Positions 30,719-49,600 of a DNA stretch of 64,000 nt are shown in pieces. Position 1 is the first letter of the stretch. Each line of letters begins with the position of its first letter. Origin of the DNA: Neelides folsomi (Eukaryota > Arthropoda > Collembola > Neelipleona > Neelidae); assembly GCA_034687125.1 (NCBI GenBank), contig JAQGBZ010000056.1:62001-126000 (forward strand), in the 5' to 3' direction. Below the pieces are notes generated by a model. It was not told the origin of the DNA. It was given only the letters and a program-made list of their open reading frames with translations, and made no database searches. The position numbers were made by a program, and so were the translations under genes.

Positions 30719-33700
30719 TCAATTAGCAGCTGAGGTTGTATTTTTTAATTTCCGCAATTCCTTTGTAGCCCAGGTTGAGAGCATTTTAGTTTTCCCTGTT
30801 CTCGATCTTCGTCCATGGCCCAAAAGTTCATTGATATTATCATTATCAACCAAGGGGAGAATTCGAGTTCCAAATCCAATTAAAAGGTCCCTAAATAAAA
30901 ATTTATTATAAAAGTAAGTTTTTTTAAAACATTTAAGATAATTTTTTTCTTTTGAAGATTGTTCAAAATAAATCTTACCCAATTAGGCCAGCACAAGCAG
31001 CAATATTTCCATCTGACTTTTCAGGGTCCTTTGAAACTTCTCCAATGAATTGAACAATGTGAACGAGATGCATCTCAATGCAGGCCAAGTCTGGTATTCC
31101 TGAACCATCCCCTCTTAAACCCTGGACAATCCCCGTATACGCCTCCAACACTCCTTCACGTAGTTCACAGAGGTAATCAACCATCTCGAAATCATTCTAT
31201 GAAAAATTCAATTATTAACCAAATTCCATTCAAACTGTCAACGCTTTCTACACCAAATTAGAAACCAGAAACCACAATGACATTCATAAATTGCATTTCC
31301 TTTACCCTATCAACTTGAGCTTGTGATGCTTGCATGAGAGTCTGTAAAACAATATCCAAATATTTCCTAAATTCAGGTCCGATCGCCAATGCCACGTCAC
31401 CCAACACAGACAAAATTTGAGGCTTCACCGATCGATGAACATTTCCACTCTAAATTACAAAAAATAACAATCAATCAAAATCTTAATCAAATTGAAGAAA
31501 TTGAATTGATCAAAACAAGATTATATTTGTAAATAATGATCAAAAATTAAAAATATTCTTACTCCTAAATTTGTGAGGAGAAGTTGCATAATTTCGTCGC
31601 AGAAAGGAACAGCTTTAGGACCCAAAGCACGGCAAATATCTCCAGAAACTCCCACAGCCGCCGTACAGACCGTATGTTCATTTGTGTTCTGAAGCCCCAA
31701 GAGGAGGAAGGGCTTGAAAGATTCCATATATTTGATGAAACCCTCTCCCATGACTTCAGTAAGGGTTGAAATGGCCATAAGGGCATCTTCCTGTACTCCG
31801 CCCGAACGACCTCCCGGGCCACTCAGCATTTGAAGAAGAGCTTCCATTACAGCATCCGAAATATTCGGAGCGTCATTTGGAGTCACTTTAAAAACAAATA
31901 AAATTAAGACACATTCTAATAACCTAATAATAACACGATACACATTTCAAGACCTTAATATTAACTTTTTAAGATAAGGGTTGAAATTAATTTAAGATTT
32001 AATTAATTTTAACTTACTTTTTCTAAGTACACTCTGAAGAGTTGCACAAAGGGAGCTCTGCAACTCATTATACTGAGATCGATCTCCTGAATTCATATCC
32101 ATTGAGAGAACAGTGCGAAGACGTTCAAGAATGACAAGAGTAGTCTGTTGAACAGTATCATAGCAATCCCTGGGAGAATTCTTAATCATCTCCATAAGTG
32201 CTTCGTAAGCTGCTGGACGGAGATTTGCCTTAAAAATAATTAACATTTATATATTATTATCAACATTTATATTATTACTTTGTTAAATCGATATATAATA
32301 TCTGAATAAATAAAATCATACTTGTAAGCCATCAGGTCTGTCAGTTGTTGCAAGAAGTTTTTCCACAATAGGTCTAAAGAAAGTTGACAAAACGTAAGTG
32401 TCAGGTTCCTTGCTCTCATCATTCCTTCCATCAGAAGCAAGTTCATATGCAGCTTCAGCAAGACTGCTAAGTGCCCAGCAAGCATTTGCAGCGACACGTG
32501 GCTCAGCTTGGAGGGCCAAAACAAGAGCATCGAGGAGAGGTGGGAGATGGTGAGGAGTCAACGCAGCATCAGAAACAACTTCACAAATTCGACCAAGAGC
32601 CCAAGCTGTAGTATCTCGAACAACTACGTTCTCGTCACTCATAAGAGCAATCAATGTCGGGAGAGCTTCTTCCGCCAATGGCTTCATCGAACCAGGTTCT
32701 GGACCTAATTTAACAAAAAGTAAAGATTTTAGATTATTATACAAACTTTAATTTTATGATAATGATAAGCTTCATTAAACTTCATTAAACTAATCTATAA
32801 ACTTAACTTTAGCTATACTGAATTACTAAAAGAATAAATGATTGAAACTCATACCTTCCATGATGCATCCAAAAGCCATGACAGCTGCATCACGGAACCT
32901 CCAATTCTCGTGTTTGATGTTATGTTGAACAAAAGGTACAACGTGGGGAATGGTGTCATCTTCACAACAGTTGGCTAAAAGCATAAGGCAAACTCCAGCA
33001 GCTTTGCATGGGTTCCAATCGTCATCATCATCATTGATTTCCTATAAAATTGATTCAATTTTTATTATGAAAAATATTTACTAAATATAATGAGATGTCA
33101 AGAAATAAAAAATTGAGATGATAAAAATAATGAAATAAATACTTGTTTCGTGAGAGTTTGAATGAGCAAAGGAACGAGATATTGTAATGCTCCTTTTGCA
33201 TAAAATCTCGATGACCGAGTTGGAGGTCGTCCCATGTCTTGAGCCTCTGTGGCTTCTATCGCAAGATCAACTTCTTCGTCACAAACATTAGACCAAAATT
33301 CAATGCCTTGAAGGGCAACGTCGTCAACGTCAGATTTCATGGCCTCCATCGTAATAGCAAACAAAGCATGATTCATGTAAAATTCCATATACTGGTAGTA
33401 GAGTGACATGATTTTAACAAGACATTGCAATGCTGCAACTTTCACTGCTGTCTCTCGAATTTGAGTCGCTTCGCATACTACTTGCATAATATAATGACGC
33501 TCAGTCTGAAATTAACCAAATTAAATTAAACAAAAGTCTAATTAAATATTAATATTTAATTATTTTTAAATGAAGAATTAAATACCTCTGCTTCAAAGTT
33601 GGTTTTAGTGAATTCCAACGAATTAAGAAGGGCATTTGTTGCCGCCAACTTGACTCTATCACTTGGTTCGTCACTTTTCATTCCATGGACAATTGCAGTT

Positions 33701-40600: not shown

Positions 40601-43600
40601 CTCAGGTCAAGAGTTGATCCTTGGGAGCTAAAGTCGGAAGCAGAGGTATTCCGATGAATTCCCTCCCCTCGATTTCCCCTCAAAAGTGAAGACCCCAAAG
40701 ATGAATGATGTTGATGGGCAGGTGGCGGAGGGTGAAAAGATGTTGAATTCTTTTTTCCAATATCTCTCAATAAACCTCGTGTTGGTTTATGTGACTTTGG
40801 TGGTGGATGATGGTCGGATTCTTCTGAGTCGTCTGCCACCCCACGACCCCTCATGACTGTTGGAAGTCGAGACATATGGGGCATGAGATTTCCCCCATGA
40901 ATTCCACTGTGGTTGAGAAGTGCTTGAAGTTTCGCACGCTCTGTTTCAACGTCGATGGCTATCCTCCTCCTCCTCCCACGACGACCACCTCCACCTATTT
41001 CAAACCATGGCTCATTTTGAATTTATAATTAAAAGAGAAGAGTTATAAAAATCCATTATTAAATAAAATCTACAATGCTAACAAACGTATGAAACTTATA
41101 CATTCCGTGCAAGAAGTCATAAAAATAAAGAGAGCAACACCGCTAACATAAAATACCATATATCCTTTTAAACTACTACAATCCCCAAATCTCCTATCTT
41201 CCCACTCATCATCATGTAAATTAGGTCAACGATGATTATCAAAAATGCCAACTCGTTTTAATTTCATAAAAACATTTCATAGTGTTTAAATCAAGGACGC
41301 GACTCTTCTAGCTTTTCCATTGTAATCCCCTTTGATAGTCTACTTAAAAATAAGCACCATATATTCAAATGATATTTAAGGTGTAAATATTATTATTACA
41401 CGTTGATAAGTTTATAAATATGTATGAAATGTATAAACCATGAAGTTTTATCTCAAAACATTTAATTTATAATCTACACAAGTTTTTTTTTCGCTCACAG
41501 TTAAAATGATAATGAGATAAACAGATAAAAGCACATGCCGATTTGATTATGATTTAAGCTACATCTAAACTTTAAATGCCAATTTCGAAGAAAAAAAGTC
41601 TTACTGTTATTCTGTTGTTGTTGTTGCTGTTGGAGGTTCATGATAAGTTCCTCAGTAGGAGCCAAGTCACTTGCTTCTGAAATTGGCGTCGGGGTGTCAC
41701 GTACCGGTGTTGAGGCCGCATCCGGAGTTCCAGTCGGAGTGTAGTCAAAGACATCAGAAACACCAGCAGATGAAAAGAATCTTGACACAGGCCATTCGTT
41801 CTTTTCAATAGCATGAACAATGTGTTCTAGCCGGATTTGAATCGCTTTATCTCTTGGCCACCGAATCGGATTCATTTGATTCAATAGATTTCCCAATGCT
41901 TCAATGTTATTGCTATCAGCAGCAAGATTAAACGAGTCTCCTAAGAGTGATTTATTTAAAATTGATTGCGTGGGAATTGAGGTTTCTTCTTGAGCATGAG
42001 GCGGCGGAGGTTCCGGAACAGAAAACTTGGGTGATCCTTTCACTTGAACCTCAACGTTCTTCATCTTCTCAGCAGAGAGTTTAATTGTGATTTTGAGTTC
42101 ATCTTTAATTTCAACTTGAACTTCATTCATGCCATCAGAATCTTTGTCTTTCTCTTCCTTCTCTCTCATTTCCTCCTTCTCGCGTTTTTCCTCTTTCTCA
42201 CGTTTTTCTTCCTTTTCTCGTTTTTCTTCCTTCTCGCGTTTTTCTTCCTTTTCACGCTTTTCCTCCTTCTCTCGCTCTTTTTCTTTCTCTTCCTTCTCCC
42301 TCAATTCTTCTTTCTCTTTCAAATCTCTTTCCTCTTTCTCCTTCACTTCATCTTTCTCAACCAATTCTTCTTTTTCTTTCATTTCCTCATCCTTCTGTTC
42401 TTCAACCTTCTCACCTTCAGTAGCTTCTTCTTTCTCTTTGGTTGAAGATTCTTCTGGGACTTCCATTGGTTCTTCTTTAATCACTACTTTCTCTTCCTTT
42501 TCCTTTTCTCCATCACATTTATCTTCAGACTTCTCGACTTCTTTTTCTACTTCTTTCTCAGGTGAAGATTCCTTTTTATTTCCAACAGCAAGAGATTCAG
42601 GAACATCTTCAGTTTTACTTTTAGCAACTTCTTCAGTCTCAGAGTCCTTCTTTTCTTCTTCGACTGCAGCGGCGGCGGCAGCAGCAGCAGCTTCAGCTTC
42701 CGCCTCCTCAGCAGCCTTTTTCTTTTTAGCGTCTTCACGCTCTTTTTTAATATCCTTGATTTCTATATCGACCATATCAGGGCGGAAACGCTTTTTAGTT
42801 TCCTCTTCACCCTTCACTTTCTTCTCCTTTTTAGCATCAAGGAGAGGTTCACCCGAAATATGTCGACGAAGAATTTCTCGGAATGACAAGTCGGGGTCAT
42901 TAAGGTAAAACAAGTCCGTGCGTCCAAGACCATGCCTTGAAATAAAAACAATAATTATTATTGATGAATAAAATAACACTCGTATAAATCTCACAACTTG
43001 TTTTGTTAAGAAGTTATATTTAAAATGTCAAGTTATTCACCTTGATGCTCCAATTAAGAGATCCTTGTCATGTTTCCCAGATATCCACCATTCAGGCATG
43101 TCTAAAGATGGTTGGCAGAGTTTGAGCCTTTCTTCAAGTTGAGGATGGAACATAACTTCTTCTCTTATCTTGTTAAGCAAATCAATTCGTTCTAATGTTC
43201 TCTTTGCTCTTTCTTCAGCCAATGGCTCAACCGGAACTTGGATCAAATCTGTGATTCAAATGAGATATGTTTAATTATGTGATAATGAACTCGGAAATTT
43301 GATCTAAATGAAAGCCTCATTCAACGTTCTGCAAGTCTGCAACTTACCAAACTCTATAAGAAGGATTTGAAGTGTGAGTTAAACGAATCCAGAGTGGAAG
43401 GTGCGAATTATGAAATTAAATAAGCAATAAATTAAATTACGCACTACCGTAATTAATAAATTCGTGAAATTTAAAGTGGATGCAATTTTACGTGACTATT
43501 TTTGTAATTTAATTTAAGAAATTACCTTCTTCCTGGGTTAGCTTCTTTCCACAGATTCTCTTACACATTGCAAAGAAAGCTCTGTAGTATTCAGTCAAAG

Positions 43601-46600
43601 TTTCATCAAACTTCTTATCGAGTCGAGAAAGAGCGCGGAATTTGGTCCAATCGTAACGATTCTCTTTCCTAAGAAATTGAAAAAGTAATTTAGAAAACGA
43701 GAAAAATATAAAATGGACATTTTAATTCTAAATTGAACTTAAATTATATTGAACATTTAGGATATATTTACTCACTTATTATATTGAATTCCAAAAGTTG
43801 AAATTGTCCTGTAAAAATCGGATTCTTCTTTTTTGCTCCACCGTTTTTGATGAACTTCCAATTTTTGTCTTTCTCTTTCACGAACAATTTGTTCGATCTT
43901 TTCTTTTCTCTCCATCCGTTGCAATAAACGCTGTAAAGAAACCTCGTTAAATACTTCATAATATATGAATCGTTATTTGAAAAAACAATAACGATCCTCA
44001 GGTCTCATAATCTCGCAAACATTAGAGGGCTGATATTTTGAGCTTGCAAGTATTTTAGTTAATACCATCGAAAAAAATATAATTAAAAAATAATACACTT
44101 GAAAACTCGAAAAAATCTCCCTCTTATTGGTTTTTTATCTCGTCATCGGAAAAAACATAGATCAATAGAAGAAAAATCAGACTCACTTTAGCCTTTTGAG
44201 CATTTCGAATTTCTTCTTTTTTGAAATTTCTTTGGAAGGAAGTGATGAGCTTTCTGAGACGAGTATTCAAATCAGAACAGGACGGCATACGGATTTGTCC
44301 AGCTTCCGTTGGTTCAGAAGGAGTTGTGGTGTCAGGAGTTGGAGTTCCCGCTGTTGGCTTCTCAATAGTTTCACCATTTTCATCTTCCTCTTCGTCTCCA
44401 CCGACAGCTTTTTCGAGCTCTTCTTCATTCCTAATTAAATTAAAATTGAAATAATTAAACTTACTTACAATAAAACTTTAGATGAAAATGAATTAATAAA
44501 ATAATTATCTAAAACTTACACTTCGGAAGATATTTCGGCGAGAACAGCAGAACCATCAGGAGGTCCACATCGACTCAAGAAGCACAATAGAGGATCGAGT
44601 CTCATTACATTGTACCTCTCGTATCCATGTTTATAAGTTCCAATGAGAAGAGATGCATCGGCCTCTCGGTCCCACCAAGGTGTAGGTCCATTGTCAACGA
44701 CAAGCGTGGGAGGACAAATTTGAATCTCACTATAAAATAAATTAACATTTAATAAACTAGCGATCATAATTTTAATGCCAAGTGAAATTAAACATACTTT
44801 GAAGGAATTCCAACAGCAATTTTCTGTGACCAGTCTCCAATGATTTCTTGTTTAATATAATACAGCATTCTGATCCTCAGTAAAACTCTGAAAAACAAAA
44901 TAAGAAACATGTAATATTGATAACCATAAATTGAAAAGAAAGTTTATAATGCTAAAGATGGTAGGAAAGAAATCTTCAGACTAACGAGATATAATTCACT
45001 CATTATATACCATTAAATGGTATTCGGTATTAGCATGGGTTTGTCATCATATGAAATTAAATAAAACTAACCAAAAGAAAATCAAGTTTAATTTTTAGAT
45101 TTTAAACTTACTTGTTGGAATGTTTCGACAAATGTTTTTTGTAATTTCCGTCCAAATGAGTTTCCGGATTGTATTTGTCATCTTGCATCCAATCCTCAGT
45201 ATCAGGTTTGTCTGGAGTTTTGGCATTTTGCTTCTTTTTACTCTTCCTACCTCCTCGTGAAACGGGATTAGCAAGGCCAGAATGATTTCTTGTAATGACA
45301 TTTCCACCCTTTTCAGAAGGAAAGATCAAGTCTGAAACAAAGCTTTTGACTTTTTCATCCCCACGGAAGTTCATGACACAATGGAGGAGAATCATCCTTG
45401 CAGCATCTTCAATATGCGATTCTTCCCATCCATTTCTAAATTGCCCTTGTGCCAATATTTCACTCCAGCGATTCCAACTAAATAATTAAAATAAACGAAC
45501 GACCATTATTCATGAAATTATATTTCTTGATCTTTGAATTTCATTGAAATGAATCTTCAGACTAACGAGATATAATTCAACTCATAGATGCCATTAAATG
45601 ACATTCGGTATTAGCATGGGTATGTCATCATGAAATATAATTATTTGATAATCTTATTAAAAATAAAAATTACCCAAATGTAAGAAGTCCCTTCTCAATT
45701 TTGTAAAGTTCACTCCTTGACCATCTGCCATATTCAACAATTCCATCATCACAATGGTAATCTTCGTCAATGCCCTTCCTTGATTTTCGACTCTTCTTTC
45801 CTCTTCGCCCTTTAAAGGCAAAAAATAATTTGATATGAGTTAGAGTTTGATTGATAAAAATACTAATTTTACTAATATACATATAATTAAATTATTATCT
45901 TACTTCCTCCTCGTGTTCTTTCCCCAACACCCCCTTCATCATCAGAATCTGACGAGGATTCAAGTTCAGAAATTTCCATAACTTGTTCGTCGTGGCCATA
46001 ACGTTTGATTTGGGTTCTTCTTCGAGGTTCATTCATTAGAAGGTCATTCTAAATAAAATAGGTAAATTATGCCAAAACAATTCCAGCAAATAAAATTCTT
46101 ATGAAAATAAAGTGACATTCATTAGTGAGAATGTCAAAAGTTTAAATATCATTAAAACTTTAATAAAAATTAACAAACCTTTTCTCCAAATTCATCAATT
46201 TCAATTTCAGCCTTCCTCGCCCATTTCTTCCAAAAATCAGGATCGTCAATATTAATATCCTCTCGGATTCCGCTTGAAGCAAAAGAAGCCTTTGAAAATG
46301 TCGATCCCTTCTCTCCAGGGTCCAACGTGATGATTTGGGTTCTCCTCTTGAGAATACAATCAATGTCTTCTTCACAGAATTTGTCCCCTGCGTTATCTTC
46401 ATCCATAAGAGCACCGTACGCACCGCGTTTGAGCAAATCCTCAACTTCCTTTTTAGAAAGCTGCTTCGAAGGATTATTCGCATCAGGATTTTTCCCTTGA
46501 GTATTCATACTTTGAAGAACTGCTTTGTCAAGTCCCAGTTTCAACGATGCTCGATCAAACATTTCCCGCTCGTACGTGCTACGACAAATGAGGCGATAAA

Positions 46601-49600
46601 CTTTGACCATCTTTGCTTGGCCAATACGATGACACCGTGCTTGAGCCTAGAAAATAAAATTAGCATGTAGAAAATAAATTCTCCTTGTTTTATAAATTTT
46701 TTTTCTTAAGATTGATCATAATGGGATAATAAATACCTGGAGATCATTCTGTGGGTTCCAATCGGAATCATATATAATTACGGTGTCAGCAGCCGTCAAA
46801 TTAATTCCAAGGCCACCAGCTTTTGTACACAAGAGGAATACGAACCGGTCCGAGTCGGGTTTGCTAAACCGGTCAATAGCTGCTTGTCTCAAAGGCCCGC
46901 GAATTCTCCCATCAATCCGTTCAAATGGGTACTTCATATAAATGAGATAATCCTCCAAAATATCCAAACATCGGACCATTTGGCTAAATATTAGCACACG
47001 ATGGCCATTTGCCTTCAACTTTGGAAGTAGCTTGTCAACAAGGACCATTTTTCCGGACGAGGTGATTAGTGCCTTGTAATAAAGGTCAGGATCATCATGT
47101 GGGACATTGTAAACCATTCTGTAATCCAGTTGGATTTGATCCTCAGCTCCATTGAGCAAATAGGGATGAATGCAGCATTTCCTCAGCTCCATCATTGTGT
47201 TCATGAGATTTGGAATGTTGGACGTGTTTGTGCCTTTGCTCAAAAATGAGAAATTCCTTTCAAGGATACCTCGATAATACTTTTTCTGCATATTGGTCAG
47301 CTCAACTTCAATGATGGTTTCTTCTTTGGGAGCAATTGACTTTTCCACGTCTTCCTTCAGTCTCCTCAACATCATTGGTTTTAAAAGAGCTTGAAGTTTT
47401 TGAACTTGAGTTTCCGTCTTCAACTCTCCGAATTCTTTTTGGAAATTTTCATCCGATTGAAATTGGGTCGGTTCTAAAAAGTTGAGAAGGGAAAATAATT
47501 CATTTACATTGTTCTGTAGCGGAGTTCCACTCAAAAGAACCCGATGTTCCAAATTGAGCATACGAAGGCCTTCTAACAATTTACAATTCTTGTTCTTGAG
47601 TCGATGAGCTTCATCAATGATGCAAAGACGCCAAGGGAAATCCTTCAAGTCCAACACATCAGTGAGAACAATTTCGAATGTTGTGATCAAGACATTGAAT
47701 TTGAAACAATCCTTAATGTTCATATTAGGATTGTCGGGGTGTCTGTAAAATAATTCATATTCTTGAATCATATTGCGACTCGCGACTGACCCATGGTAAA
47801 CAACGACATTCAAATCCGTCCAAGTTTCAAATTCTCTTTGCCAATTTGGAACAGTGGAGAGGGGAGCAATGACAAGAAACGGACCTCGAATTCCAACCCG
47901 AGTCACAGATTCAACAAATGCTAAGGATTGGATAGTTTTTCCAAGACCCATTTCATCAGCTAAAATACAATTCCTCCCGTTGAACCATGAAAAAGACAAC
48001 CAATTGAGACCTTCAAGCTGATACTCTCGCAATGTATTGGAATTTTTGTAAACTGGAGAGTCTTCAAGTTTGACCCAATCAGCTGGCTTTGGCCTTTTCT
48101 TCTTACTCCATTGATCTTTAGTTGGTGGTTTGAAATACCGATGGAATTGTTTTAGAATTTCGGGATCAATGTCATCGTGTAATTCCCATGTGCATTCGTC
48201 ATAAGGCAAAGATCGCCATTTGACCAAATAATTCCTAGAGATGTTTCCAGTTGATGGATCTCGTACTTCAGACATGTCCAAGATACGATCAACTTCTGTG
48301 TATTCAGGATTGAAAGCGTCTTCTTCAAGGAACTCAAAGATATTCGAATTATTTGCCATCTTCTGCTTGTACCTTTTGATTTTTGGAGTTGCTCGCTTGT
48401 CGCCTTTTAGAAGTTCTTCCTCCGTTTTCCACTCGCAATGAAGATAAGAAAAATTCTTGAATTTGACAAAGAATTCTTCAACTTCAATTGTTTGTGGGGG
48501 CTTTGGAATTTTCTTTTTCCCTTTTTTGGGGGATCCTTCGATTGTTTCTTCAGTCTTTATATCTTCTTTTTTCTCATCTTCCTCAGCGCCTTCGACTTTC
48601 TCTGTACTTTCTGTTGCCTCAACTTTAATTTCGTTTTCATCTTTTACTTTTTCAGGTTCTTCTTTCTTTTCTTCTTCCTCCTCATCGGCTTTCTTTTCGG
48701 GGGTCTTTGGAGTTGAAGGTTGTTCAACTTTAATTTCCAATTCCTCTTCTTTTTCCTCTTTTTCTTTGGCAGGCTCTTCAATTTTTTCTTCATCAGATTT
48801 AACAACTTCTGGTTTTTCAGTTTCTTCAGTTTTAATTTCAGAATCAGTTGCTTCTAATACAGCCTCGTCTTTGGGTTTTTCTTCTGATTGATCTTCTGAC
48901 TTTTTCTTTTCGTCTTCAGTTTTTACTTTTTCTTCATCTTCGTCCTCTGAAGAGGAATCCATAATTATTTCTCTAGTACCAGTCCGTACTTGCAAAATAT
49001 GCTGAATTATCATAGTGTCTTCTTCGGCAGGATTCTAAAATTGAAAACATCAAAAATAAACAATATGTCCCATCTACAGATGAATATTATTTAAGATAAT
49101 TTTCAGCTAAATATAATATGTACTAGAGGTATGTAGTTTAAAACTTGTATGCATTTTTGAATTATCATTAATTTTTACTTACAATGAATACAAAATTAGG
49201 TTTGTTCTGGTTGAAGCTCTGATTGCTATTCGATTCCTCTTTTTTGGGCGTGGCAACTGCAGGAGTTGATGGGGCCGATGGTGCTCCTGCTGTGTCAGCA
49301 GTTCCAGGAGTTGCTGATGGGCCAGATATTGCGCTTCCATCAGCTTCAGTGGGAACGACTTCCCCAGGTGGAACAACAAGCGGTTTCTTTTTATCAGGCA
49401 TTAACAAATCCTCTTCGGATAAAGGAAGGTCAATATCATCAATATATTTTTTCCTCTTTGTATTTCTTGCAGACCGTCGTTTGTTTGACAAGTCTTCTTC
49501 TGGCGGGGGTGAAGGAGGTGGTGTAGCATCCAAATCGGATCCTTCGGAATCGCTTCTCTTCCTTTTCTTTTTCTTAGCTAAAGCGCTTATCAAAGTCCTG

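Follow-up and report, generated by a model that had tools for sequence, protein, structure and literature searches.

Two adjacent introns of a kismet-type gene each hold a short unit bounded by box C and box D motifs, which raises the question of whether these units are snoRNAs and, if so, which RNAs they would guide and how this host came to carry them. In the window (that is, the whole 64-kb stretch of DNA analysed here), both units and all of their parts lie on the minus strand, which is the strand of the host gene: copy A occupies 45557..45631 within intron 45673-45478, and copy B occupies 44976..45050 within intron 45111-44888. The span from the first base of box C to the last base of box D is 75 nt in both copies, with box C (ATGATGA) at 45625..45631 in copy A and 45044..45050 in copy B, and box D (CTGA) at 45557..45560 and 44976..44979, respectively. 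This is the arrangement described by the initial annotation, with one pair of boxes in each flanking intron. A 12-nt D' guide of U6-A53 type, CCCATGCTAATA (45609..45620 in copy A, 45028..45039 in copy B), runs directly into a degenerate D' box, CCGA as opposed to the consensus CTGA (45608-45605 and 45027-45024). A 7-bp hairpin with the loop TTA lies between D' and C' (45588..45604 and 45007..45023), and an 11-nt D guide, ATCTCGTTAGT, a U30-type antisense with a probable 28S target, directly precedes box D (45561..45571 and 44980..44990).

Taken alone, boxes C and D are weak evidence for a snoRNA: the two strands of the 64 kb contain 13 RTGATGA-to-CTGA pairs separated by 50-99 nt, two of which have the exact 75-nt span. 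Both copies combine a box C of the form RUGAUGA and a box D CUGA at snoRNA spacing with antisense elements of at least about 10 nt just upstream of D or D', these elements pairing over 10 and 11 bp with two U6-like loci and over 11 bp, including one G-U, with a presumed 28S string. In addition, CCATGCTAATAC occurs twice in the window and in none of 100 shuffles. Judged by these sequence features, the pair consists of genuine-looking intronic box C/D snoRNAs, a class that is itself already known.

The host was characterized by a domain search. Chromo, SNF2 and helicase-C domains (PF00385, PF00176 and PF00271) are encoded at 46716..49034 on the minus strand, a BRK domain (PF07533, 2.9e-9) is found in host stretches downstream of the SNF2 part, and an HTH_CHD6-9 domain (PF23078, 2.7e-20) is encoded at 43509..43721, also on the minus strand; the tri-helical, BRK, chromo and SNF2 domains are thus all present. 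By PF23078 and BRK together with the chromo and SNF2 domains, the kismet-type host is a member of the CHD6-9 subfamily, and the label "kismet" given to it at the outset is therefore right. Kismet is the fly member of CHD6-9, and CHD8 is one of its vertebrate members. The exon of kismet that separates the snoRNA introns (45112..45477, minus strand) was delimited by splice joining and its open frame, and its coordinates had been drawn correctly, the frame being open across both splices. The introns holding copy A (196 nt) and copy B (224 nt) are both GT..AG introns of the minus strand with junctions in phase 2, and their removal leaves three joined exon stretches in one stop-free frame. In the translated host, these junctions fall within the final codons of LLTFG and of KHSNK. 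As for the surroundings, the minus strand also carries a mir-965 precursor, upstream of the main kismet exons, at 55177-55104 (RF02520, 62.3 bits, E 9.4e-11); mir-965 is a kismet-intron miRNA in flies, and the kismet-type host and mir-965 together point to an arthropod source. Downstream of kismet, at about 30975-32747 on the same strand, lie parts of a gene resembling importin beta-1 (PF25574 TPR_IMB1, HEAT_EZ).

The two 75-nt units are alike at 65 of 75 positions, which bears out the duplication in adjacent kismet introns that had been claimed, and they differ at positions 10, 30, 31, 42, 45 and 48-52. All ten differences lie outside a set of 38 positions that covers both guides (12 nt for D' and 11 nt for D) and boxes C, D' and D; the hypergeometric P is 4e-4, for a set that was picked after the data were seen. 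The intron sequence flanking the units is dissimilar (16/40 and 19/41 ungapped identities). Three of the ten differences lie in the hairpin between D' and C', where pairing is kept and where one pair is altered on both sides, from G-C to A-U; such retention of pairing was matched by 256 of 500 shuffles and concerns two sequences only, and the covariation is suggestive only. Because these three differences keep the hairpin paired, the linkers may be constrained and not drifting freely. The initial picture of identical guides set between differing linkers consequently needs a qualification: guides and boxes are indeed free of changes, but three of the linker changes leave the hairpin intact. Five more differences correspond to a slight displacement at C' (TATGAGTTGAA vs TAATGAGTGAA).

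From its sequence, the D' guide is best read as a probable guide to U6 snRNA A53. When both strands of the window were compared with 4227 Rfam families, E 0.5 was reached only by mir-965 and RF00377 (snoU6-53), the latter being the best RNA match after mir-965 (E 0.074). In 121-nt searches, RF00377 matched copy A with 27.7 bits (E 1.4e-4) and copy B with 22.9 bits (E 2.9e-3). In this covariance comparison, of the kind suggested earlier, the family is the best match of both copies by E-value, but both scores fall below its gathering cut-off of 36 bits. The similarity takes in boxes C and D, a C' box of the form UGAGU, the guide CCAUGCUAAUAC and the register of D'; D' itself is CUGA in the family and CCGA in the copies. 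The D' guide is complementary around U6 A53, which by our count on the human U6 would lie five bases from D'. Like RF00377, then, the copies are C/D RNAs with the D' guide in equal register and a UGAGU-type C'; they are shorter (the match covers 85 nt, compared with 110 model positions) and are set apart by the degenerate D' and the U30-type D guide. By guide, boxes and host we regard them as probable relatives of RF00377, and not as established members, because both scores lie below the curated cut-off. When the assembly (75.1 Mb, 840 contigs) was searched with RF00377, with 55 of 3572 first-look candidates scored, the two kismet copies were the only places listed at E<=1 (E 0.021 and 0.421); of 14 prokaryotic control genomes, 2 also gave matches at this threshold, which makes both the E-values and the count of two soft. 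A DNA search of the assembly with copy A likewise listed only the two kismet copies.

Two U6-like loci, both above the Rfam cut-off, were found by a U6 search of the assembly in which 48 of 8492 candidates were scored. The first (L001, 1501-1612) carries GATTAGCATGGCCCC and the second (L002, 1501-1598) carries TATTAGCATGGTCC, and both presumably diverge from canonical animal U6. The guide complement AUUAGCAUGG is held by both loci, as is ATTAGCATGG. In computed duplexes, the D' guide pairs with L001 over 10 bp (-14.6 kcal/mol; 1 of 1000 shuffled guides as good) and with L002 over 11 bp (-15.4 kcal/mol; 0 of 1000). A T6 run follows the 3' end in L002, and no T-run stands there in L001. It is possible that the assembly lacks the main U6 genes as well as the rDNA.

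The D guide ATCTCGTTAGT matches the U30-type antisense AUCUCGUUA of the snoU30 model. With a string presumed to represent 28S it forms 11 pairs, one of them G-U (-12.6 kcal/mol, a value equalled by 5 of 1000 shuffled guides); this is the large-subunit pairing put forward by the initial annotation, recovered here against that presumed string only. The D guide probably targets an A in 28S, and both +5 target positions are A, as had been predicted. In snoU30/SNORD30 (RF01283) the antisense AUCUCGUUA(A/G)UCUGA likewise stands directly before a CUGA box; the guide tract alone is common to the two, that of the model falling within the first half of its length and that of the copies before the terminal D. 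Whole-model scores for RF01283 were 21.2, 13.9 and 19.5 bits against a cut-off of 45. An assembly search with this model listed four places (E 0.35-0.75, one of them on C171), with the kismet copies not among them; this listing is at noise level, 9 of 14 control genomes responding as well. The U30-type guide motif ATCTCGTTARTCTGA was found at four places in the assembly, two of which are the kismet copies, and at none in the reversed control; the other two (C50 and C171) were rejected, since visual inspection revealed no clear box C and neither reaches an Rfam cut-off. For 28S itself, the motif was found at 0 places as an exact 22-nt match and at 0 places as a 27-nt match with up to 3 mismatches, and a motif search for 18S gave 7 places, each of them with 3 mismatches, where the reversed control gave 4, which is not a convincing signal; the rDNA seems to be absent from the assembly or to have been missed. 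Both copies would have a dual target, probably U6 and 28S. Of the proposed dual-target guide duplicated inside kismet, the two antisense elements and the duplication stand, but the pair of targets has probably to be changed.

The introns themselves offer some indications of how such RNAs could be processed. Box D lies 79 nt (copy A) and 88 nt (copy B) from the 3' intron end, distances near the spacing favoured for vertebrate intronic C/D snoRNAs. By Rfam alignment, the terminal stem has 4 standard pairs in copy A and 2 of 4 in copy B. Outside the unit, copy A may form an 11-bp intronic stem (5' arm 45642-45632, 3' arm 45516..45526, minus strand) that abuts box C and begins 30 nt past D; it was equalled in 8 of 2000 shuffles when only Watson-Crick pairs were counted and in 230 of 2000 when G-U was allowed, and it may be read as at most a hint. 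The best external stem of copy B has 7 bp, a length reached by 1134 of 2000 shuffles, and the whole folds of the two copies are not clearly above shuffles (z -0.89 and -1.46).

A parallel for both guide and host exists in human. According to tables in two papers, SNORD8 (mgU6-53) and SNORD9 (mgU6-53B) target U6-A53 and have CHD8 as host (PMC6466398, PMC6023535), and another paper also gives CHD8 as the host of SNORD8 (PMC3766210). Both human RNAs belong to the Rfam family RF00377 (snoU6-53/MBII-28). Two copies in one host are common to the human pair and to copies A and B, the host belongs to the CHD6-9 subfamily on both sides, and the only assembly places listed for RF00377 sit in the same gene subfamily as CHD8. 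With CHD8 being a relative of kismet, this comparison suggests that the association of a U6-A53 guide with a CHD6-9 host may be older than the human-arthropod split. Hoeppner and Poole (2012, PMC3511168) trace no stable intronic snoRNA positions to the eukaryote ancestor, argue for ongoing snoRNA mobility and cite a positional conservation of 14% between birds and mammals. A human-arthropod association would fall between these two depths. Tentatively, and with somewhat less than an even chance of being right, we suggest that guide and CHD6-9 host have been together since the bilaterian ancestor as an exception to such mobility, perhaps because the dosage of a modifier of splicing RNA is tied to a chromatin remodeller; in this lineage the RNA would bear a second guide that connects the modification of spliceosome and ribosome. 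If the association is inherited, it would provide a test case of a snoRNA kept in one gene since before the arthropod-vertebrate split, and the CHD6-9 introns of any bilaterian would be expected to contain CCAUGCUAAU flanked by boxes C and D. The copies are also a candidate invertebrate U6-A53 guide, none being named in the passages of open-licence literature that were examined, and the second guide would couple modification of U6 and 28S within one RNA. No kismet-hosted snoRNA was found in the same kind of passages: the main text of a Drosophila S2-cell preprint has 0 mentions of kismet, U6 snRNA or A53 (PMC13228274), and in another paper the kismet passage concerns an enhancer, with a table placing CR44218, which is not a snoRNA, beside kis (PMC12449766).

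Taken together, we hold it likely that the locus carries a redundant intronic C/D pair with guides for U6-A53 and 28S and an old CHD6-9 association. Splicing and trimming of the kismet pre-mRNA would free one C/D snoRNA per intron, probably of 75-95 nt, which would assemble with fibrillarin. The D' guide CCAUGCUAAU would pair with U6 AUUAGCAUGG and lead to 2'-O-methylation of U6 A53, while the D guide AUCUCGUUAGU would pair with 28S AUUAACGAGAU, with one G-U, and direct methylation of the 28S A five bases from the box. As products of a duplication inside the host gene, both copies would be redundant, and the U6-A53 guide and the CHD6-9 host would probably have been joined already in the arthropod-vertebrate common ancestor, given the CHD8 host of SNORD8 and SNORD9.

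The target and the age of the association are the points at which other readings diverge from this one. The D' guide could be directed at 18S rRNA instead of, or besides, U6, at the site of yeast snR53 and plant snoR53, and a small-subunit guide is what the initial annotation had named. The plant family snoR53Y (RF01279), an 18S guide like the yeast snR53, shares the antisense CCAUGCUAAU with the copies and gives copy B more bits than RF00377 does (23.6 vs 22.9); moreover, the last guide base (A) would lengthen the pairing to UAUUAGCAUGG, so that an 18S target is possible if the 18S of this species has UAUUAGCAUGG. Nevertheless, the E-value of snoR53Y is the poorer one in both copies (0.014 for copy B, where the match stops at 44993 and does not reach the D guide or box D; the score of copy A is 16.8 bits), the complement is present in the U6-like loci, the papers cited above give U6 as the target of the comparable human guides, which reside in a related host gene, and the species' own 18S was not found by motif search of the assembly. 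We consider an 18S target quite unlikely, and the small-subunit assignment probably yields to U6, with the higher bit score of copy B remaining in its favour.

Real U6-A53 guides might also have reached a CHD6-9 host twice by coincidence, through separate insertions into related genes of broad expression. The instability of intronic snoRNA positions across the eukaryote tree and the tendency of snoRNA hosts toward broad expression, both reported by Hoeppner and Poole (2012, PMC3511168), would favour this account, but guide type and host subfamily both match, the only RF00377 places listed in the assembly are these two, and a random host would, we infer, rarely coincide; such a coincidence is rather unlikely. 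That the pair is decayed or non-expressed, and alike through recent duplication only, would fit the scores under the Rfam cut-off, the degenerate D' and the weak terminal stem; against this, divergence has spared boxes and guides, the intron flanks of the units are dissimilar, and, as a weak point given the 256 of 500 equal shuffles, the three hairpin changes retain pairing, which makes decay very improbable. The reading of a maintained pair guiding U6 and 28S is thus the one that we prefer.

Several other loci were considered as possible relatives of the kismet copies. The pattern TGATGA followed after 2-16 nt by CCATGCTAAT was found at seven places in the assembly, including the two kismet copies, and at none in the reversed control. 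The other five were rejected as snoRNAs: three have no CTGA at 20-110 nt, two have one 53 and 41 nt on and were rejected all the same, none shows a D'-like box by eye in the 8 nt past the guide, and none is at an Rfam cut-off. Although rejected, these five places against 0 in the reversed control are unexplained. A scan of viral contigs (IMG/VR) for relatives, in which matches were read with the 25 nt before each, gave 13 contigs, 4 of which have TGATGA upstream (L028, L030, L032 and L034); three of the four are identical over the stretch read. In addition to TGATGA, these four stretches contain CCATGCTAATACCGA and, judged by spacing, a CTGA further downstream. They were rejected as snoRNA relatives and are probably coding sequence, because the stretch in L030 overlaps ORFs on both strands. 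Lastly, the contigs C93 and C680 (L040 and L042, near 1500) share a stretch starting TGATGACTCCATGCTAATTAAAAAGTCCCAATTACTCAAT, which looks like a dispersed repeat and not a snoRNA.
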